Shown here: in pieces, positions 41,608 to 62,890 of the stretch
How positions within the stretch are numbered: the first letter of the stretch is position 1
Layout: each line of letters opens with the position of its first letter
Assembly: GCF_001306455.1 (NCBI RefSeq)
Contig: NZ_LGTQ01000005.1
Span: 434,001-498,000 of the forward strand
Length of the DNA: 64,000 nucleotides
Source of the DNA: Jiulongibacter sediminis
GTDB lineage: Bacteria; Bacteroidota; Bacteroidia; Cytophagales; Spirosomataceae
Direction: 5' to 3'
Program-made: the position numbers and the translations under genes
The notes under the pieces: generated by a model
Seen by the model: only the letters and a program-made list of their open reading frames with translations
Databases searched by the model: none
What the model was told of the DNA's origin: nothing

Positions 41608-43422
41608 TTACTCTGCTTCTTTTAAGAAGTCTCTTATTTTTTTGGTTTTGTGTTTACCCAGAATTTCAATAAGCTCATCATCAGATGCGTTTCTGATATT
41701 CTGGATGGTTTTAAAGTGCTTCAAAATTTTAGTAGCCGTGGGCTTCCCTATTCCGGGAATGCCTTCTAATGAGCTTATCAAAAATCCTTTACTTCTTCGA
41801 TTTCGGTGATGTGTAATACCGAAGCGGTGAGCCTCATCACGGGCCCTCTGAATCAATTTTAATGATTCCGATTTTTTATCAATATAGAGGGGGAGTGTAT
41901 CCTCAGGGAAGTAGATTTCTTCCAGTCTTTTAGCAATACCAATAATTGGTATTTTTCCATATAAATCAAGCTCTTTCAGTGCTTCAACTGACGCAGATAG
42001 CTGTCCTTTTCCACCATCAATTACGATAAGATCAGGCAGGTCTTCTTTTTCTTCAAGTAGCCTTTTATATCTTCTGAAAACCACCTCTTTCATGGTACCG
42101 AAATCATCAGGCCCAGTTACCGTTCTCGGGATATAATGCCGGTATTCTTTTTTACTCGGCTGACCGTTTCTGAAAAGCACCATGGCACTTACGGGATTGG
42201 TTCCCTGAATGTTTGAGTTATCAAAACACTCAATATGCCGGGGCAATTCTTTCAGCTGTAGGTCTTGCTTTAATTTGATCAGAACACGGTCACGCTTATT
42301 GGTTGCTCCACTTTTGGCAATGGCGTCACGCTCCGCTTTTTCATGCCTGTAGTACATGATATTGCGAAGCGACATCTCAATTAACTTCTTTTTGTCACCA
42401 ATTTTCGGGACTACTACTTGTGCTTTTAAGTCGGTATCCAGCTCAATATTACTGAAGATTTCTTTGGCTTTACTTTCGTATTTCTGACGCACCTCAAACA
42501 TTACCTTTTCAAGGATTTCGTCATCGGGTTCTTCCAATTTCTTTTTAACCTCGAAAGTTTGTGTTTGTGTAATCGTACCATTGCTAATCTTCAGATAGCA
42601 GATATAGGCTGCATCGGCATCTGATTGAATTCCAAAAACGTCAGCATCTGATATTGAGGGGTTAACTACTGTTGCTTTTGACTGGTAGTTCTGTAAAAAC
42701 TCCAGCTTTTGCTTGAACTCATGAGCTTTCTCAAAAGCCATTGAGATTGCAGCTTCCTCCATTTTTTCTTGAAAATACTCCTTTGCAGGTGCAATGTTCC
42801 CTTTCAAAATATGGTGAACCTGTTCTATTTCTTTCAGGTAATCGCTTTCTTCTTGCAAACCCTCGCAGGGCCCAAGGCAATTGCCAATATGATACTCAAG
42901 GCAGAGTTTAAACTTGTGGGCGGCCACGTTTTCCTCTGATAGTACATATTTACAAGTACGAATGGTGTAAAGCTGGGTAAACATATCCAGCAAGGCGTGC
43001 ATGGCCTTCACATTCACGTATGGTCCGTACATTTTACCCTTTTTACGGTCGTCTATCTGACGGGTTTTAACGAGTCTGGGGAAACGTTCGTTGGTTACAC
43101 AGATGTAAGGGTAGTTTTTATCATCTTTTAACATGATGTTGAACTTCGGCTGAAGCTCCTTTATCATGTTATTTTCAAGCAATAGAGCATCATATTCGGA
43201 GTGTACAACGGTGTACTCCAGATTATGAATGTTCATGACCAGTCTTTTCGTTTTCCGATCGGCCCGATCAAAATTATAGAAATAGCTGCTTATTCTGTTT
43301 TTGAGGTTTTTGGCCTTTCCAACGTAAATTATGGTCCCTTTATGATCAAAATATTTATATATCCCAGGTTCATTGGGTAACAGCGGAATTTGGGTTTTAT
43401 AATCAAATTTTATGGAAGCCAT
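41608..43422 (-). CDS. uvrC: Excinuclease ABC subunit C
   Basis: A 604-residue nuclease of nucleotide excision repair that makes both incisions around a UvrB-bound lesion. The N-terminal GIY-YIG domain shows PGIYKYFDHKGTIIYVGKAK. A UvrB-binding UVR motif is in the middle. The RNase H-like domain has ECFDNSNIQGTNPVSAMV and LIVIDGGKGQLSASVEAL with catalytic Asp residues. A tandem helix-hairpin-helix (SSLEGIPGIGKPTATKILKH) ends it. The ATG at 43422 is preferred over the TTG at 43428. It is the last gene of the RiPP-like operon, 17 bp after the nucleotidyltransferase gene. Confidence 0.97.
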   Translation of the reverse strand: MASIKFDYKTQIPLLPNEPGIYKYFDHKGTIIYVGKAKNLKNRISSYFYNFDRADRKTKRLVMNIHNLEYTVVHSEYDALLLENNMIKELQPKFNIMLKDDKNYPYICVTNERFPRLVKTRQIDDRKKGKMYGPYVNVKAMHALLDMFTQLYTIRTCKYVLSEENVAAHKFKLCLEYHIGNCLGPCEGLQEESDYLKEIEQVHHILKGNIAPAKEYFQEKMEEAAISMAFEKAHEFKQKLEFLQNYQSKATVVNPSISDADVFGIQSDADAAYICYLKISNGTITQTQTFEVKKKLEEPDDEILEKVMFEVRQKYESKAKEIFSNIELDTDLKAQVVVPKIGDKKKLIEMSLRNIMYYRHEKAERDAIAKSGATNKRDRVLIKLKQDLQLKELPRHIECFDNSNIQGTNPVSAMVLFRNGQPSKKEYRHYIPRTVTGPDDFGTMKEVVFRRYKRLLEEKEDLPDLIVIDGGKGQLSASVEALKELDLYGKIPIIGIAKRLEEIYFPEDTLPLYIDKKSESLKLIQRARDEAHRFGITHHRNRRSKGFLISSLEGIPGIGKPTATKILKHFKTIQNIRNASDDELIEILGKHKTKKIRDFLKEAE

Positions 43423-43439
43423 AGGCAAACAAAGCTAGC

Positions 43440-44582
43440 TTAACGCCTGAAGGTTTTTTCTATTAGATAAGACAAAATTTTGCTCATAAAGTTCAGGATT
43501 CTGAATCGCTTTGGGAAGTTGATGATTCGTTTGCTTTCAATGGGATTTGGCTCTGAATAGGCTTCAAAAACCCTTTTAAGGTATTTCCATTTGCTAAAGC
43601 CGTGATCCTGAGACTTTATAAGAATCTGTTCATAAGCTAATCGCGGGAAAGACTTTCCCCAGTGATTTCCCTTGTTCCAAAAACTTACAACATGTTTTTC
43701 ACAGGAATGACTTCTACTTCCAATACTATTTGTAAGCGTTCTCGGGAGTTCAATTTTGAGGTTCTTCTCAATCAAATAAAGGCCATTTTTGAAGGCTCTA
43801 TCATACCCGAATTCTTTACACTTTCCTACAGTGGTCAGCCAGTCAAAATTTTCATCAACTTTGAGAATGAAGGCACCTAGATCCATTAGGTTTTTAAGTC
43901 GAAGCCAAAACTCTTTAGCACCATGGTGTGTAAGTAAAATCCAAAATATTTTCTCTTTTTCATCCAGATCATCATGAAAAAGGATGTCTGAAGGCATTTT
44001 GTATGGAAGAAAAGGATAATGCAGGCCCCAATGTAAATCAACGTGTGTCTGATTTTTGATCAATGGGAGCTCAACCTGTCCATGAGCATCTCTTAATTCT
44101 TCAAAGCTAACTTCTCCCAAACTGTTTCTTTGTTTTTTAACATTCAAATCAAATCCGAGGTCTCTAAAAATATTTAAAGCTTTGACCAGATTTACTCTGT
44201 CAACAATCAAGTCTAGATCTCCACCGGCCCTTATACTTTCATTGTAAAGGAAGTTACTGAAACGAATTCCCTTAAAGTCCTCAATGTGAATGTGGTTTTG
44301 ATGAAAAGCCTGTTTGATTTTTAAAAGCTCTGTTTGAAGGACCAGATTCATAGCAGCTTGGCTCAAACCGAAAGTTTCCAGTTTATCAGCATAGGCAGTG
44401 GGTGGTTTGAGATCAAATTTCTTTATCGTTTGAAAAACCAAAGGCTCCAAACCATGAAAATTAATAAACCTGAGCAGATCAGGGTCTTGTAAAGCCCCAA
44501 AGTGGTTATGTGCTAAAGGTTGTTTTAGCAAATAGGCCCGAATGCTGTCGAGCAGAAATTCCGTTTTAGCATTGGGCCGCAT
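43440..44582 (-). CDS. Nucleotidyltransferase-fold protein of a RiPP-like cassette
   Basis: A 380-residue protein of the uncharacterised nucleotidyltransferase family found with lasso-peptide B2 proteins (NTP_transf_5 type). The N-terminal helices are followed by the family lysine motif FKGIRFSNFLYN (about 103-114) and the catalytic acidic signature RAGGDLDLIVDRVN (about 119-130), where the two Asp residues bind magnesium-nucleotide. HVDLHWGLHYP is a further family landmark. In paeninodin-type lasso pathways an NTase of this kind accompanies the kinase. Its start overlaps the kinase gene by 17 bp. Substrate here is unknown; a phospho-peptide or a carrier is possible. Confidence 0.82.
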   Translation of the reverse strand: MRPNAKTEFLLDSIRAYLLKQPLAHNHFGALQDPDLLRFINFHGLEPLVFQTIKKFDLKPPTAYADKLETFGLSQAAMNLVLQTELLKIKQAFHQNHIHIEDFKGIRFSNFLYNESIRAGGDLDLIVDRVNLVKALNIFRDLGFDLNVKKQRNSLGEVSFEELRDAHGQVELPLIKNQTHVDLHWGLHYPFLPYKMPSDILFHDDLDEKEKIFWILLTHHGAKEFWLRLKNLMDLGAFILKVDENFDWLTTVGKCKEFGYDRAFKNGLYLIEKNLKIELPRTLTNSIGSRSHSCEKHVVSFWNKGNHWGKSFPRLAYEQILIKSQDHGFSKWKYLKRVFEAYSEPNPIESKRIINFPKRFRILNFMSKILSYLIEKTFRR

Positions 44583-45468
44583 ACTGCTCTACAAAGTGTT
44601 TAAGGTTTTCAAATCCCTCAGGGCGTTTCAATAGATTGATTTTGACCGTTTTCGATAAGGTAATGGAATCCTGGAAATGGCTTCTGATCAGAGCACCGGA
44701 TAGCAATTGATTTGGCAAAGGAAAATGTTTCAAAAACTCTATTGGAGCTTTGAAAGTTGGTAAATCGCCTGACTCCTCAAGGTTGAGAATGTTGATTTGA
44801 GCAATATCGATGACTTTTTTCTCAAATTTCTCGAAATCTTGGGTTATCAAATACTTGTCACGACCCTCAAAAGATGGTTTAAGATTTTTGAGATCAATTC
44901 TAAGACCATCAAGGGCATTTTGCCAAACTTTGAATTGAGGGAATGCGGGTAGAAGAGTAATGTTATTTTGCTCAATTTTCAGAGCAACCAGGTCATCTGT
45001 CAGAACAGGAAATCCGGCCTGCCAAAAAGCAGTGGCCATGGTGGACTTTCCAGCTCCGGGTTCACCCAAAAAAAGATGAGCCTTATTTTTAATTTTAACT
45101 GCACTGGCATGAAGCATGAAAAAGCCTAGTTGAAACAAAGCTATTCCTATAGCTTCACTCAGAAGAAAAAGTTTTAACGTTTGGGGCTCGTCGCAATAAG
45201 ATTGATAACGAATTTCTTGCCCTTCAGTTATTTCAAATGTGGCAATTGAAGGCCAGTGAAGGCGGACCGTTTCTGAATCTATATTGATTTCTGCCTGCGT
45301 ATCTTTTCTGAAAACCTGTGTTTTTTCGTATGATCTTGGCGGAATCGTGGTCTCAGAAATAAATAAATCTGCCTTTTCAGAGCAGATCATAGGTAGCATA
45401 TCTGAAAGGTCTGGGTCGCTTTGAATACAGAGGCCGAATGCTTTATATGTTGTGCTATTTATTCCCAT
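44566..45468 (-). CDS. HprK-like serine kinase of a RiPP-like cassette
   Basis: A kinase of about 300 residues related to HPr kinase/phosphorylase. The frame begins with TTG at 45474; the ATG two codons later (45468) is preferred. The core reads FFMLHASAVKIKNKAHLFLG and on into GEPGAGKSTMATAFW: the His after the strand, the P-loop at about 135-142, then VLTDDLVALK with the DD pair of the active site. It lacks the C-terminal HPr-binding motif of true HprK, as do the lasso-associated kinases that phosphorylate peptide serines. It overlaps the B2-like gene by 10 bp and the NTase gene by 17 bp, so the set is translationally coupled. Confidence 0.82.
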   Translation of the reverse strand: MGINSTTYKAFGLCIQSDPDLSDMLPMICSEKADLFISETTIPPRSYEKTQVFRKDTQAEINIDSETVRLHWPSIATFEITEGQEIRYQSYCDEPQTLKLFLLSEAIGIALFQLGFFMLHASAVKIKNKAHLFLGEPGAGKSTMATAFWQAGFPVLTDDLVALKIEQNNITLLPAFPQFKVWQNALDGLRIDLKNLKPSFEGRDKYLITQDFEKFEKKVIDIAQINILNLEESGDLPTFKAPIEFLKHFPLPNQLLSGALIRSHFQDSITLSKTVKINLLKRPEGFENLKHFVEQYAAQC

Positions 45469-45869
45469 GTCCAAAGAGGTAAATAGTTGAAATCAGGAAC
45501 GTCGCCAATTAAAACCTCGCCTTTTTTCTCAATCCAGGCATGGGCATCGAGTTTTGCTACTCCAGGCTGTACTCCAATAACTAATTTATATTCAGACGCT
45601 TTTCCTTTCATTTTTTTGAAAGCGAGTGCCTGAGGAAGGCAGGTGAACATACCCGGATAAATGATGGAGGCTTTTGAAATAGAGGCAGAAAGCAATTCGT
45701 CATCTTGAATTGATTCATCTTTAAGGGAGTTTTTGAACCATTTTTTGAAGTTCTCAAATGAGCGAAAACGTAGGTTCAAATAAACCCAAATAAGCTGTAA
45801 TATCGCCTTTTTTAGTGTTTGACGTTCTCTGATACCGAGCTTATTGTATTTTTTCAACCAATTGTTCAT
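45459..45869 (-). CDS. Lasso peptide B2-like (transglutaminase-fold) leader peptidase
   Basis: A 136-residue protein of the lasso biosynthesis B2 family (Transglut_core3), which in lasso pathways removes the leader from the precursor. The Cys-His-Asp triad is intact: Cys77 in MFTCLPQALAF, His110 in LDAHAWIE and Asp126 in VPDFNYLPL. The IGV strand before the His (YKLVIGVQPG) is typical. A hydrophobic helix near residues 22-32 may touch the membrane. The start overlaps the PqqD-like gene by 29 bp. Cognate B1 (PqqD-like) precedes it, which is the usual order for a split B protein. Confidence 0.88.
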   Translation of the reverse strand: MNNWLKKYNKLGIRERQTLKKAILQLIWVYLNLRFRSFENFKKWFKNSLKDESIQDDELLSASISKASIIYPGMFTCLPQALAFKKMKGKASEYKLVIGVQPGVAKLDAHAWIEKKGEVLIGDVPDFNYLPLWTWE

Positions 45870-46113
45870 TCACTAAATCATCTAGAACACTTTGAATATC
45901 AGGAAGGCATTCATGTGCAGATACGTCATATTCCTCCGCCACCTTTTCAGCTAGAAAAGGAGCATCAGCTTCCTGTTTTTGAAGGACATTCCAAATCAGT
46001 GTACCTACTTCATTGAGATTGTAATATGTGCCTTTAGTATGGTTTAAAATGACGGACTCTTCTGAAAATGAAGTGGACACTTGCTGGTCGCTTAATTTAT
46101 ATTTGGTTGACAT
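45841..46113 (-). CDS. PqqD-like RiPP recognition element (lasso B1-like)
   Basis: A 90-residue winged-helix protein of the PqqD family, which binds leader peptides of ribosomal natural products. The pattern SVILNHTKGTYYNLNEVGTL then IWNVLQ is the beta-wing followed by the recognition helix, and YDVSAHECLPDIQSVLDDLV is the closing helix pair. No radical-SAM partner is near, so it belongs with the B2-like protease that overlaps it. The gene begins six bases after DUF3822. The leader it recognises is not encoded beside it. Confidence 0.9.
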   Translation of the reverse strand: MSTKYKLSDQQVSTSFSEESVILNHTKGTYYNLNEVGTLIWNVLQKQEADAPFLAEKVAEEYDVSAHECLPDIQSVLDDLVNEQLVEKIQ

Positions 46114-46119
46114 TTTACT

Positions 46120-46887
46120 TTATTTTGGCTTTGCGGCAGCAAAAAGTAGATAATAGCGGTGTATGGGACATTCCTGAAAATATTGAGAGAAAGTAAGTCC
46201 GGGTACTTTATCAGCCAAGGCTACTGAAGAAAACTGGGCTGCCAATTGTTTGAACTCTAAGGCATAAGCAGTTACCTCACCAATGACTTTGAAGTTTTGA
46301 ATCTCCTTTTCCTTTAGGATAGGAATGGTATTAGCATAAGACGATGCATAATAGCTGTTCATTCCTCTGTTGAAAAGAAACAAACTCAAACCAAACTGGT
46401 GAAAAATCAAAGTATTCTCTTCTAATTCACTTTCAGCGAGAACTATTTCAGGCTCCCTCTCCGGATAGAATTCCTGAAGAAAAGTTGTTAACTCTTCTTC
46501 CGCTTCAAAAGCAAATGAGCCTTCCTTGGTTTTTGAGATTAAGACACTTTCAAATTTACTTTTGAACAGAGTTTGCAGAATTTGAGATGCTTGTTCCTCA
46601 TTGATATCAGCCGGAACAAAACACTTTTTACTGCTATGAAGCAGAACTTTTATTTTTTTCCAGAACCTCACGCTCAGTAACGGATGATCACTGAACAATT
46701 GTTGGATACGCTTGAGTTTACTTTGCGGGTAAAGTGGGAAATCCTCAAGCCAGACAATTCGATTCTGAGAGTCGGCAATGCTAAAATGTAAGAATGAATC
46801 GCTTATTTCTATGAGTAATTGAGAATCAGGTATTTGCTCAATGGTAAAACGATCGTCTTTGACCGAGTAACTGGCCTCAATATGCAT
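46120..46887 (-). CDS. DUF3822-like protein
   Basis: A protein of about 255 residues. The frame opens with TTG at 46902, but the ATG at 46887 leaves the NUDIX gene clear and gives a normal start (MHIEASYSVKDDRFTI). Features such as LLIEISDSFLHFSIADSQNR then IVWLEDF near the start, and TLIFHQFGLSLFLFNRGM in the second half, resemble DUF3822, a Bacteroidota family with an actin-like duplicated fold and no known activity. DUF3822 members are often next to rsmD, coaD and NUDIX genes, and here the NUDIX neighbour is kept. It precedes the PqqD-like gene by six bases. Confidence 0.6.
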   Translation of the reverse strand: MHIEASYSVKDDRFTIEQIPDSQLLIEISDSFLHFSIADSQNRIVWLEDFPLYPQSKLKRIQQLFSDHPLLSVRFWKKIKVLLHSSKKCFVPADINEEQASQILQTLFKSKFESVLISKTKEGSFAFEAEEELTTFLQEFYPEREPEIVLAESELEENTLIFHQFGLSLFLFNRGMNSYYASSYANTIPILKEKEIQNFKVIGEVTAYALEFKQLAAQFSSVALADKVPGLTFSQYFQECPIHRYYLLFAAAKPK

Positions 46888-46894
46888 GTTTTCG

Positions 46895-47344
46895 TTAACC
46901 AAACTGGATATATTCCTTTAAAAAATCAGGTTTACTTTCAGGGTCAATTTGCTCAAATTCAGCTTCGGAAAACCATTTAAGCTGACTAAGGATTACTACG
47001 TTTTCAGGATCTGAACCAAGTTTTGCTTCCCCGCCCAAAAAACTGACTTCAAAATAGAACTCAATGGCATGTAAAGGAGGCTGAATGAATTCTCTCTGGC
47101 AAAGTAACCCGCCAATTTTTACATTTAAATGGGTCTCTTCCTCAAACTCTCTCAAAAGAGCCTTTTTCAATGATTCTCCTTTTTCGGGTTGACCTCCGGG
47201 GACATTCCAATAATGTCCTTTTGGCCCAATTCCTTCATGACGAAGCAGTAGGATCTTCCCATCTTTTAGCAGACAACCACAAACTCGTACCCGTATTTTG
47301 TTTCCGTACTTTCGGGCGATTTCCTGTTGAAGGTTGTCTGTCAT
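46895..47344 (-). CDS. NUDIX hydrolase
   Basis: A 149-residue NUDIX enzyme and the first gene of the operon. The box reads GGQPEKGESLKKALLREFEE then ETH (GX5EX7REUXEE with His in place of the usual Gly-hydrophobic end). The preceding HEGIGPKGHYWNVPGG is the common entry. Substrate is unknown: many such enzymes clean nucleoside diphosphate derivatives. A TAATTTTG promoter element lies 18 bp before the ATG. It overlaps or nearly touches DUF3822 downstream. Confidence 0.88.
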   Translation of the reverse strand: MTDNLQQEIARKYGNKIRVRVCGCLLKDGKILLLRHEGIGPKGHYWNVPGGQPEKGESLKKALLREFEEETHLNVKIGGLLCQREFIQPPLHAIEFYFEVSFLGGEAKLGSDPENVVILSQLKWFSEAEFEQIDPESKPDFLKEYIQFG

Positions 47345-58606: not shown

Positions 58607-61600
58607 ATGTTTGAAAAAATAATTGAATTGAGCATCAAAAATAAGGTCGTACTCGGCTTTGTTTTGATACTCGTACTGATATGGGGAGCCTTTTCATTGC
58701 GTCAGCTGCCCATTGATGCCATCCCTGATGTTACTAATAATCAGGTGGTTATATTGACGCAATCGCCCGCTTTGGCCACAGAAGAAGTGGAGCAATACAT
58801 TACGGCACCGCTAGAGCTTCAAATGGCTAACCTACAGGGTGTTACCGAAATTCGCTCCACGTCAAGACAAGGCCTCTCGGTGATTACGCTCGTTTTTGAG
58901 GAGGATATTGATATGTATCTGGCTCGCCAAATGGTTGCGGAGCAAATCAAAATAGCTGAGGGTGATATTCCTCAAAATTTCGGTTCACCCGAGCTCGCCC
59001 CTATCACCACAGGCCTTGGCGAGATTTATCAATATACCCTGGTACCCCAAAAAGGAAGTGAGGATAAGTATTCACTGACAGACCTCAGAACCATTCAGGA
59101 CTGGGTGGTGAAACGCCAGCTGGCCGGGGTAGAAGGCGTTATTGAGATCAGTAGTTTTGGCGGTTATGTCAAACAATATGAGATAAAGGTCAACCCGGAG
59201 AAATTGAAGGCCAATGACATTAGCCTGAGTGAGTTATATGCTTCTTTGCAAAGCAATAATGCCAATATAGGCGGTAGCTATATTGAGAAGAACAGTCAGG
59301 CTTATTTTATTCGTGGTCAGGGTGTTGTATCGAGTCTCGATGATATCGGACAGATTGCCGTCGGTCAAAAAGGTGGCCTACCGATCAGAGTGAAAGATGT
59401 GGCAGATCTGGGTTTCGGTCATGCCATTCGCTATGGGGCTATGACAAGAAACGGAGAAAGTGAAGCTGTTGGTGGTATTGTATTGATGCTCAAAGGAGCC
59501 GACTCTGAAAAGACCATTGAGGCTGTAAAAGAACGTATCAGTCGGATTTCCGAATCTTTACCTGAAGATGTTCAGATTTCAGCTTTCATTGATCGTACCA
59601 AGCTGATTGATAAATCGATAAGTACGGTTGAGAAAAACCTATTGGAAGGAGGTTTGATTGTCATTTTTGTACTGGTAATGCTCATGGGTAGTATCAGGGC
59701 CGGCTTGCTGGTGGCCTCGGTAATTCCCATTACCATGCTCATCACCTTCGGTATCATGAATCAGGCGGGTATTTCGGCTAACCTGATGAGTCTCGGTGCT
59801 ATGGATTTCGGTTTGTTGGTTGACTGTTCAGTGATTGTGGTTGAAGCCGTTCTATTCAAACTACACCACGATAAACAGTATAAAGTCCCTAAAATAGAAG
59901 CCGGAAAGATGGATAGTATGGTGAAACACTCCGCTACTTCCGTTTTGTCTTCAGCGGTCTTCGGTGGATTTATCATTTTGCTGGTTTATCTGCCTATTCT
60001 GAGCCTTGAAGGAATTGAGGGAAAGATGTTCAGACCCATGGCTCTGACGGTGAGTATAGCTATCATGGTCGCTATTTTGCTTTCGCTGACCTACATTCCG
60101 ATGGCTTCTGCTCTACTCTTGAGAAAGGAGGGAAACAAGCATTTCAAAATCTCAGATAAGATTGTCAATAGCATTTATAGGGTCTATGAACCGATATTTC
60201 TGGGAGCAATCAGAATGAAGAAAACCACCGTGACTGTGGCTCTACTTTTACTTGCTGCGGCTATTTTTACCTTTACCCGGATGGGTGGTGAGTTTATCCC
60301 GACACTCGATGAAGGCGACCTTGCGGTGGATTTCCAAACAGCTCCCGGTTCCTCTTTAACCACTACGGTAGATGCGACCTTAAAAGCTCAAAAAGCTCTG
60401 CTCAATAAGTTTCCTGAAGTCAGGCAAATTGTGGGTAGAGTAGGGGCCTCAGAAGTACCTACCGACCCAATGCCACCTGAAATGGCCGATTTGATGATCA
60501 ACCTTAAAGACGCTGAAGAATGGACATCAGCCGGGTCAAGGGAAGAATTGGTTGAGAAAATGGCGGCTGTTTTGGAGGAAGAAGTTCCGGGAACCAGCGT
60601 GGAGTTCACACAACCTATTCAAATGCGTTTCAATGAGATGATTTCGGGTGCTAAATCTGAAATTGTAGTCAAAATTTTCGGGGAAGATTTGAATATACTC
60701 TCAGATTTAGGAGAGAGGGTCAATCAGGCCCTGCGAAAAATCAACGGCGTGGCCAGCGTAAAAGTTGAACGCGTAGCCGGTTTGCCTCAAATTAAAGTTG
60801 ATTATGACCGCGATGCTCTGGCACGCTATGGTTTGAGTATTGAGGAGTTAAACACAACTTTGAATACAGCCTTTTCAGGTCAGACAGCCGGTGTTGTTTT
60901 TGAGAAAGAAAAGCGTTTTGATATGGTCATGCGTTTTGATGAATCTTTCAGAAAAGACATCGAAAATGTTCGTCAATTGCCGGTGAAAACGGCTTCAGGG
61001 GCTTTTGTTCCTTTTGCGGCCTTAGGTAATATTACTTACCAGACTGGTCCGGCCCAGATTTCAAGGGAAGGTACTAAACGCCGTATCAATGTCGGTATTG
61101 GTGTTTTAAATCGTGACGTGGAGTCTCTGGTAGAAGAAATTCAGGAAACGTTGAAAAACGAGGTTAATCTGCCAACAGGCTATTATTTTGAATACGGCGG
61201 TGCTTTTGAAAACCTGCAGATGGCTAAAGACCGACTGATGATTGCCGTGCCTATTGCCCTTGCTCTCATTTTTGTGATGCTCTACTTCACTTTCCATTCA
61301 CTGAAAAAGTCACTGATCATCTTCACCGCCATTCCGTTTTCGGCTATCGGTGGGGTGTTTGCTCTTTACCTCAGAGGCATGCCTTTTAGTATTTCTGCCG
61401 GGGTTGGTTTCATTGCTCTTTTCGGGGTTGCTGTACTGAACGGTATTGTTTTGTTGGGCTACCTGAGTGATTTGGAGAAAGATGAAACGATGAGTCTTAC
61501 GGAACGTGTCAAAGCTGCTGTCAAAGTACGTTTCAGGCCTGTGATGATGACCGCTTCTGTGGCCTCTTTGGGCTTTTTGCCAATGGCTATTTCAACTTCT

Positions 61601-62890
61601 GCGGGTGCTGAAGTTCAGAAACCACTGGCCACCGTTGTGATCGGTGGGCTAATTTCTGCCACTCTGCTGACCTTGGTGGTTTTACCCGTTTTATACATGT
61701 TATTCAATCGGGAAGAAAAGAACTCACATTTTAGTAAAACACTGGCTACCATTGGTTTTATTGTGCTTCTTCCGGCTTTGGGTAATGCTCAAATGACTTT
61801 AAGTCAACTACTGGAAAAGGCTGATCAGAATAACCCGGGGTATCAATTGAAAGATGCTGAAATCGCCATCAGAAAGCAGGATGTGTTGGCCTCAAAGTCG
61901 GTGCCTACCACTGATTTCAGTTTGCAATACGGTAATCTTCAGAATCCGGGAGCCAATGATTACGTGCTGGGAGTTGAGCAAGGAATTCGAAATCCAGCTA
62001 AAAATAAGAGTTTAAAAACCTATTACGAGAGTCTGATAGGTGTAGCAGAAGCTGATAAAAAGTTGTCAAAAGCTGCTCTCCATCGGCAGGTAAGGCATTT
62101 CTACTTTTCGATGGTGAATACCAATAGAGAAATGAATATTCTACAGGAGCAGCTTACCGTCTATGGTCAATTGCAGGATTTTGCTCAAAAACGTGCCAAT
62201 GCCGGGGCGGCCTCAAAAATGGATGCTCTGATGGCAGGAAACGAAATGGAGGCTCTTAAAACTCAACTCAATCACAAAGAGGTATTATTTCAGTCCGACC
62301 TCAATGCATTGAAAAAGTTACTCAATGTGGATGAAATTGAGCTTGACTTTGATGGTACTGTACCTATTGCTGCAGCCTTGGAGAACCCCAATTTATTATT
62401 GATTCAGGCCAATGAGAATGCCGCAAAAAGTGCCATTGAAGTAGAGCAGTCGAAGATGAAGCCTGATTTTAGTCTCGGCTTTTTTAATCAAAGTATGGTC
62501 TCAAAACTCAATCAATTTTATGTTGGTGGTGGCATTCAGATTCCCATTTTCAAATCGGCCGAAAAGGCTCGTGTGGAGTCGGCCCGATTAACTCAGGCTT
62601 TGATAGGTGAGCAATACAAAGTGGCTGAATACGAGTTATCCAAAGATTTAATGAGGCTACAAGCTGAAGCTGAGGGTGTGAAGGCCTCAGAGAACCGCTA
62701 TAACACTATTTTGGAGCAAAGCGAATCAGTGATTTCGATGGCTCAGAAAAGGTATTTGGCGGGTGAAATCAGCTTTCTTGAATACCATCAGCCTTTGCTT
62801 CAGCAGTTAAACTTTAAGCTGAATAAGCAGAGTTTAGGGCACCAGTTTAATCTTATCCAAAATGAAATTCTATGGCTTCAGGGCCAATAA
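58607..62890 (+). CDS. CzcA/CusA heavy-metal RND pump fused to a TolC-like domain
   Basis: A 1427-residue fusion. Residues 1 to about 1040 are a metal-efflux RND pump: AIPDVTNNQVVILTQSPALA at the start, two periplasmic porter sections, and twelve helices. The proton-relay helix AMDFGLLVDCSVIVVEA carries two Asp and one Glu, with Cys407 where most relatives have Gly. After the last helix a second signal-like segment (LATIGFIVLLPALGNAQ, about 1046-1062) leads into about 365 residues of a TolC/CzcC-type outer-membrane efflux protein (MTLSQLLEKADQNNPGY to ILWLQGQ). Such pump-channel fusions are known in Bacteroidota. It would export Cu(I)/Ag(I) or Zn/Co/Cd; adaptor follows 11 bp downstream. Confidence 0.93.
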   Translation: MFEKIIELSIKNKVVLGFVLILVLIWGAFSLRQLPIDAIPDVTNNQVVILTQSPALATEEVEQYITAPLELQMANLQGVTEIRSTSRQGLSVITLVFEEDIDMYLARQMVAEQIKIAEGDIPQNFGSPELAPITTGLGEIYQYTLVPQKGSEDKYSLTDLRTIQDWVVKRQLAGVEGVIEISSFGGYVKQYEIKVNPEKLKANDISLSELYASLQSNNANIGGSYIEKNSQAYFIRGQGVVSSLDDIGQIAVGQKGGLPIRVKDVADLGFGHAIRYGAMTRNGESEAVGGIVLMLKGADSEKTIEAVKERISRISESLPEDVQISAFIDRTKLIDKSISTVEKNLLEGGLIVIFVLVMLMGSIRAGLLVASVIPITMLITFGIMNQAGISANLMSLGAMDFGLLVDCSVIVVEAVLFKLHHDKQYKVPKIEAGKMDSMVKHSATSVLSSAVFGGFIILLVYLPILSLEGIEGKMFRPMALTVSIAIMVAILLSLTYIPMASALLLRKEGNKHFKISDKIVNSIYRVYEPIFLGAIRMKKTTVTVALLLLAAAIFTFTRMGGEFIPTLDEGDLAVDFQTAPGSSLTTTVDATLKAQKALLNKFPEVRQIVGRVGASEVPTDPMPPEMADLMINLKDAEEWTSAGSREELVEKMAAVLEEEVPGTSVEFTQPIQMRFNEMISGAKSEIVVKIFGEDLNILSDLGERVNQALRKINGVASVKVERVAGLPQIKVDYDRDALARYGLSIEELNTTLNTAFSGQTAGVVFEKEKRFDMVMRFDESFRKDIENVRQLPVKTASGAFVPFAALGNITYQTGPAQISREGTKRRINVGIGVLNRDVESLVEEIQETLKNEVNLPTGYYFEYGGAFENLQMAKDRLMIAVPIALALIFVMLYFTFHSLKKSLIIFTAIPFSAIGGVFALYLRGMPFSISAGVGFIALFGVAVLNGIVLLGYLSDLEKDETMSLTERVKAAVKVRFRPVMMTASVASLGFLPMAISTSAGAEVQKPLATVVIGGLISATLLTLVVLPVLYMLFNREEKNSHFSKTLATIGFIVLLPALGNAQMTLSQLLEKADQNNPGYQLKDAEIAIRKQDVLASKSVPTTDFSLQYGNLQNPGANDYVLGVEQGIRNPAKNKSLKTYYESLIGVAEADKKLSKAALHRQVRHFYFSMVNTNREMNILQEQLTVYGQLQDFAQKRANAGAASKMDALMAGNEMEALKTQLNHKEVLFQSDLNALKKLLNVDEIELDFDGTVPIAAALENPNLLLIQANENAAKSAIEVEQSKMKPDFSLGFFNQSMVSKLNQFYVGGGIQIPIFKSAEKARVESARLTQALIGEQYKVAEYELSKDLMRLQAEAEGVKASENRYNTILEQSESVISMAQKRYLAGEISFLEYHQPLLQQLNFKLNKQSLGHQFNLIQNEILWLQGQ

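Follow-up and report, generated by a model that had tools for sequence, protein, structure and literature searches.

A gene block that is probably half of a split lasso-type peptide pathway coupled to type IX secretion cargo in Jiulongibacter sediminis

Most work on lasso peptides has dealt with free molecules, antimicrobial or signalling, each produced from a single gene cluster. In peptides of the paeninodin type, the phosphorylated residue is the C-terminal Ser of the core. The paeninodin and pseudomycoidin clusters hold a precursor (A), a leader-binding protein (B1), a leader peptidase (B2), a cyclase (C), an HprK-like kinase (K), a nucleotidyltransferase (N) and an exporter (D), and PsmN, a relative of N, is required for hexose addition to the phosphorylated lasso peptide pseudomycoidin (PMC9266682). 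A separate system handles the cargo of the type IX secretion system (T9SS): in Porphyromonas gingivalis, PorU removes the C-terminal domain (CTD) and attaches anionic lipopolysaccharide (A-LPS) (PMC8545088). Here we describe a block of four overlapping minus-strand genes, B1, B2, K and N, at positions 43440-46113 of a 64,000-nucleotide stretch of Jiulongibacter sediminis DNA (contig NZ_LGTQ01000005.1, 434,001 to 498,000), which we call the window. We conclude, with a probability of roughly 0.72, that this block is half of a phosphorylated lasso-type peptide pathway that is split in this genome and is coupled to T9SS cargo.

Judged from sequence, the other parts of the pathway lie on two other contigs: contig C4 holds A and a T9SS cargo gene, and contig C5 holds C, a lipoprotein gene and the gene for PorU2, a PorU homologue. 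An earlier note on this DNA had reported A, C and D as missing. This is correct for the window, where a leader-motif search found no precursor, inside the block or elsewhere, and where we found no cyclase or ATP-binding cassette (ABC) exporter, but A and C are present elsewhere in the same genome. The note's suggestion that the substrate is encoded elsewhere was borne out by the precursor on contig C4. Short open reading frames (ORFs) at the loci of relatives share a YxxPxL...G...LT leader and, in the core, the motif GSxxD; the named relatives belong to Spirosoma, Runella, Emticicia and Dyadobacter. The J. sediminis genome has exactly one match to the precursor profile, MEKTKKKYVKPELKKLGNVKTITLKTGSVSDFGSNQFQP (E=3e-12), with the core KTGSVSDFGSNQFQP. 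Across 24 aligned sequences the Tyr, the Gly, Thr(-2), Lys1, Gly3, Ser4 and Asp7 are invariant. By analogy with paeninodin, which has Thr at -2, Lys1 would be the first core residue and Asp7 the site of ring closure. In a search of 390 genomes of the order, precursors of this type turned up only in this family, Spirosomataceae.

The genome encodes two Asn_synthase proteins, and the candidate cyclase is the one on contig C5, a 568-aa protein whose gene is unlinked to the block. It has an intact SGGLDS loop, shows no N-terminal glutaminase Cys in the alignment, finds its best NCBIfam match in the lasso cyclase model NF033535 and is the only lasso-cyclase-like protein of the genome. Its gene overlaps the lipoprotein gene and is convergent with the gene for a C25 peptidase, which is PorU2 (NF052324, 754.9 bits against a cut-off of 450); PorU2 residues His593 and Cys626 are kept in 8/8 aligned copies. 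There is one such lipoprotein and one PorU2 in the genome. At all of the lipoprotein-cyclase loci that we found (35 loci, 34 distinct), PorU2 lies within about 4.5 kb, and it does so at 0/20 lipoprotein loci without a cyclase. Because the lipoprotein is present in 93 of the 121 family genomes, and PorU2 scores over the cut-off in 94, we did not accept either of them by itself as marking the pathway; the specific feature is therefore their pairing with the cyclase. Four Spirosoma genomes with K have two PorU2 copies (G004, G039, G067 and G097) and a fifth has one (G078); Spirosoma genomes without K have one.

The lipoprotein family (L035:8595-9251 and homologues) has no Pfam or NCBIfam match, and carries invariant C-terminal Cys-Gln and Cys-x-Gly motifs. 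Its predicted fold is all-beta (predicted local distance difference test 84). The best match in the PDB is weak, a putative Parabacteroides lipoprotein (4fvs, template modelling score 0.46), and LolA-like matches rank below it in the search with the predicted structure.

Three Spirosoma records (L194-L196) bring the dispersed parts together. Within about 10 kb they have, in order, PorU2 on the plus strand, the lipoprotein on the minus strand, the cyclase on the plus strand, and then N, K, B2, B1, the precursor and a T9SS cargo gene, all on the minus strand. Since these nine genes are contiguous in Spirosoma, the block in the window belongs to a larger set. Natural loss points the same way. In the congener G045, whose UvrC is 91% identical, 181 bp separate the DUF3822 and uvrC genes that flank the block in J. 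sediminis, no remnant of the block lies between them, and that genome has no precursor, no lipoprotein and no PorU2. Its cyclase is still an ORF, with NGGIYS where SGGLDS is expected. The dispersed parts thus appear to have been lost together, and this joint failure of unlinked parts is our strongest argument for a single pathway. K also follows the precursor across the family: it is present in 37 of the 38 precursor-bearing genomes vs 13/83 without a precursor (p=6e-19, uncorrected for relatedness, as all of our co-occurrence counts are without tree correction). In all, 50 of the 121 Spirosomataceae genomes searched have homologues of K.

In a second congener, G019, the cyclase at the same site beside uvrD is decayed (VNDLDS), and a second, intact cyclase is accompanied by PorU2, the lipoprotein and precursors. 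The two loop-less cyclase ORFs beside a uvrD-like helicase gene (L124:9154-10803 in G045 and L128:9237-10955 in G019) may be decaying or may have a new role.

The coupling to T9SS comes from the position of the precursor genes. Downstream of the J. sediminis precursor gene, 88 bp away and in the same orientation, is a gene for a 338-aa protein with a T9SS type A sorting domain, a domain with about 40 matches in this genome. Across many genomes, the sorting domain model TIGR04183 matched 32/46 precursor-adjacent proteins vs 2/46 controls, which were genes further away in the same loci (E<=0.001; Fisher p=3e-11). These counts come from the independent NCBIfam model, as the profile of the first screen had been partly trained on the same neighbours. 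The N-terminal domains of the cargos differ, and only the C-terminal part with the sorting signal is common to them, so the peptide is the constant part and its partner the one that varies. In G021, a genome of a related genus, three unlinked precursors adjoin cargos with unrelated N-terminal domains; the cores of these precursors are 91% identical to one another and the leaders 54%, and two of the three cores are letter-for-letter identical to the J. sediminis core. An ice-binding-like domain of adhesin type (PF11999) occurs in 7/46 precursor-adjacent proteins, as T9SS cargo.

We infer every chemical step of the pathway, and the threaded shape of its product, as follows. B1 would bind and present the YxxP leader of A. 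K would phosphorylate a core serine, for which the invariant Ser4 is a candidate acceptor, and N would add a further group, either a nucleotide or a sugar. B2 would cut after Leu(-1), Thr being at -2, and C would close the Lys1-Asp7 ring in KTGSVSDFGSNQFQP. The modified peptide would then act at the cell surface with the co-encoded T9SS-secreted protein, as an anchor, a tag or a partner. PorU2, related to the sortase which replaces the sorting domain of a cargo with an anchor, might handle cargo and peptide together; the gene pairing and the homology to PorU suggest this step, which we offer tentatively and consider rather less probable than its absence. We are more doubtful still that the lasso-type peptide is itself a covalent anchor or tag, with a dedicated PorU2 removing the sorting domain and joining the cargo to the peptide, which would replace A-LPS. 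If that were true, a lasso peptide would be the basis of a protein-sorting system. We know of no peptide pathway that feeds PorU. Overall, the peptide-making half of the proposal is well supported by what is known of these families, and the surface half with PorU2 is suggested by the pairing of genes.

Several observations weigh against the pathway as proposed. The precursor scores 17.2 bits against the leader model NF033521, just under its cut-off of 19, and the cyclase reaches 138 bits where the NF033535 cut-off is 525. Closing Lys1 onto Asp7 would give a 7-residue ring, which is among the smallest lasso ring sizes known. The J. sediminis core ends in Pro and not in Ser, and most homologue cores end in other residues. 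On the secretion side, 14/46 precursor neighbours have no sorting domain at E<=0.001, the precursors of Dyadobacter and of some Runella pair with the cyclase or the lipoprotein and not with cargo, and many genomes that have no lasso genes carry PorU2 and the lipoprotein too. A phmmer scan found no dedicated ABC exporter at the three loci of J. sediminis (the window, L035 and L173).

Some relatives have other layouts. Three loci from the genus of a Runella record (L043, L044 and L049) have cores without Lys1 (GMGSGGGD, AMGSAGGD), and their precursors adjoin the cyclase or an MsbA-like ABC gene, with no sorting-domain partner. In four loci from the genus of Dyadobacter records (L139, L142, L189 and L190), the lipoprotein, precursor and cyclase form one operon with a tandem pair of PorU2-like genes; no cargo gene lies beside the precursor, and B1-B2-K-N is located elsewhere. 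Directly upstream of a K gene, L072:10537-11358 has a tandem run of three precursors whose tails are long and rich in glycine. We had considered the conserved Lys1 as a general sortase nucleophile, and dropped this as a rule since the cores of Dyadobacter and of some Runella have no Lys there.

The alternative that survives best, although we think it unlikely, is that the product is an ordinary secreted lasso peptide, an antimicrobial or a signal, with the T9SS protein as its immunity protein, receptor or carrier, and with PorU2 and the lipoprotein as a surface protease or as immunity, so that peptide and cargo would not be joined. Accessory proteins are common in lasso clusters, and the cyanobacterial relatives of the cyclase do look like ordinary clusters, with A and K adjacent and usually an ABC exporter. 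However, by the same phmmer scan 57/61 cyclase loci in the family lack a dedicated exporter, whereas 9/12 K-containing cyclase loci of other phyla have one. The 91% identical cores in G021, next to cargos with unrelated N-termini, also fit a common component better than three pairs of peptide and immunity protein. The cyanobacterial loci in question (L204, L206, L209, L210, L211, L223, L226 and L262) have cyclase, short precursor and HprK-like kinase side by side; with an ABC exporter in 6 of the 7 that were checked, they are ordinary clusters with the same kinase type.

It is improbable that the product is linear and phosphorylated, as in the linear polyphosphorylated peptides (LPP) of Bacillota, and that the Asn-synthetase-like gene has some other role. 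K and N do recur in a cyclase-less family with a RiPP (ribosomally synthesized and post-translationally modified peptide) recognition element, or RRE (PMC13381572), and the J. sediminis cyclase is unlinked and under its model cut-off. Against this, LPP clusters have a signal-peptidase-like enzyme and no cyclase, where this genome has B2 and an intact cyclase; the cyclase adjoins B1-B2-K-N in Spirosoma and decays where the block is lost; and all 24 aligned precursors have Asp7 and Thr(-2). We give a similarly poor chance to a decaying relic, that is, a split lasso pathway which no longer functions in J. sediminis. The decayed cyclases at the uvrD site of G045 and G019 and the single precursor left in this genome would fit such a relic, but the catalytic motifs are all intact here, the four genes are translationally coupled, and the core equals two of the three cores in G021 letter for letter.

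The earlier note had preferred a stand-alone set that might phosphorylate or nucleotidylate a host protein, which would fit a window without precursor, cyclase or exporter, and had named a cyclase and precursor adjacent to the block in close relatives as the finding that would speak against it; the contiguous Spirosoma clusters have exactly that, A and C turned up elsewhere in the same genome, and the leader peptidase would have no role if there were no precursor, so we have ruled this reading out as very improbable. The comparison with HPr-rel systems was also not upheld, as both of the HPr-rel-A models stay under their cut-offs: HprK_rel_A (TIGR04352, kinase) gives 36.6 bits with a cut-off of 200, and PqqD_rel_X (TIGR04353, PqqD) gives 21.8 bits with a cut-off of 35.

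For the block itself (Table 1), we reproduced the coordinates and the overlaps of 29, 10 and 17 bp, the 10-bp value assuming the ATG start of K. All four family identities hold by family models, that of the kinase weakly, and these assignments uphold the likeness to B1, B2, K and N of paeninodin-type clusters. From their sequence, the four genes are translationally coupled and have every catalytic motif intact. B1 scores 59.5 bits against lasso_PqqD_Bac (NF033536), under the cut-off of 80, and in a structure comparison its closest solved chains belong to lasso B1 proteins, TbiB1 (5v1u) among them; B2 had no match among solved structures. The genome has a single PqqD and a single B2. The Cys77/His110/Asp126 triad that had been proposed for B2 holds in part: Cys77 and His110 are invariant in 46/46 homologues, as is Trp112, but position 126 is Asp in 6/46 only. 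Position 123, which is Asp or Glu in 29/46, is a stronger candidate for the remaining residue of the triad. The P-loop of K (G142 K143 S144) and its D160 D161 pair are kept in 57-58 of 58 homologues, and D122 and D124 of N in 38/39.

Table 1. Features of the four-gene block and its boundaries (positions in the window)
Feature	Coordinates	Strand	Evidence and remarks
B1, PqqD-like leader-binding protein (RRE), 90 aa	45841..46113	-	PF05402, 57.7 bits (cut-off 23.4)
B2, leader peptidase, transglutaminase-like fold, 136 aa	45459..45869	-	NF033537, 57.2 bits (cut-off 33)
K, HprK-like kinase, 302 aa with the TTG start, 300 aa with the ATG start (45468)	44566..45474	-	Hpr_kinase_C, weak, E=0.0015
N, nucleotidyltransferase-fold protein, 380 aa	43440..44582	-	NTP_transf_5, PF14907, 106.6 bits (cut-off 31.2)
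DUF3822 gene, upstream boundary, outside pathway	46120..46902	-	in congener G045, 181 bp from uvrC, nothing between
uvrC, downstream boundary, outside pathway	41608..43428	-	flanks block in G000 (J. sediminis), G019, G021, G034, G014

In the lineage of the window, DUF3822 and uvrC bracket B1-B2-K-N in the same five genomes, and a NUDIX gene also lies upstream of the block in the window. We do not count DUF3822 and uvrC as pathway genes because both are kept in G045 without the block. Elsewhere in the window, at 58607-62890, a 1427-aa ORF looks by eye like a putative fusion of a heavy-metal resistance-nodulation-division pump (CusA-like) with an outer-membrane domain of the TolC type.

What sets this system apart is that its enzymes are dispersed, that precursors are matched singly with genes for surface proteins, and that in this family a homologue of the T9SS sortase always accompanies the lipoprotein-cyclase pair. 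If the link holds, a lasso peptide gains a role in the handling of cell-surface proteins, PorU2 gains a candidate partner, and it becomes clear why genome mining that relies on clusters would overlook precursors of this kind. In the open-access literature that we searched, we found no description of a lasso peptide paired with type IX secretion, no paper that links a RiPP to a T9SS sorting domain, and none on PorU2. We see two known systems combined, in a pairing that is apparently undescribed in that literature.

Among the known systems, the LPP clusters share an RRE, an HprK-like kinase, an NTP transferase and a short precursor with this set, but have a signal-peptidase-like enzyme and lack a cyclase (PMC13381572); with B2 and a cyclase, the J. 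sediminis set falls outside that class. The cebulassopin system likewise has lasso genes that do not form one operon, and the title of the paper on it names no T9SS link. Three features of lasso pathways were found here: a YxxP precursor with Thr(-2) and, within the expected positions 7-9 of the core, an acidic residue (Asp7); discrete B1 and B2; and an SGGxDS cyclase without the glutaminase Cys. Of the features of the paeninodin type, the HprK-like kinase and the PF14907 protein were found, and a C-terminal Ser acceptor and an in-cluster exporter D were not. The paeninodin and pseudomycoidin clusters have the same B1, B2, K and N families, a cyclase, and a YxxP leader in which Thr stands at -2 (PMC9266682). 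Unlike them, J. sediminis has its genes at three places, with no dedicated exporter found and a core that does not end in Ser. The cargos have type A sorting domains, as in the T9SS of P. gingivalis with its PorU attachment complex, and PorU2 is a homologue of PorU with conserved His and Cys. J. sediminis also differs from the paeninodin and pseudomycoidin clusters in that its precursor is paired with T9SS cargo, and PorU2 and the lipoprotein stand beside its cyclase.

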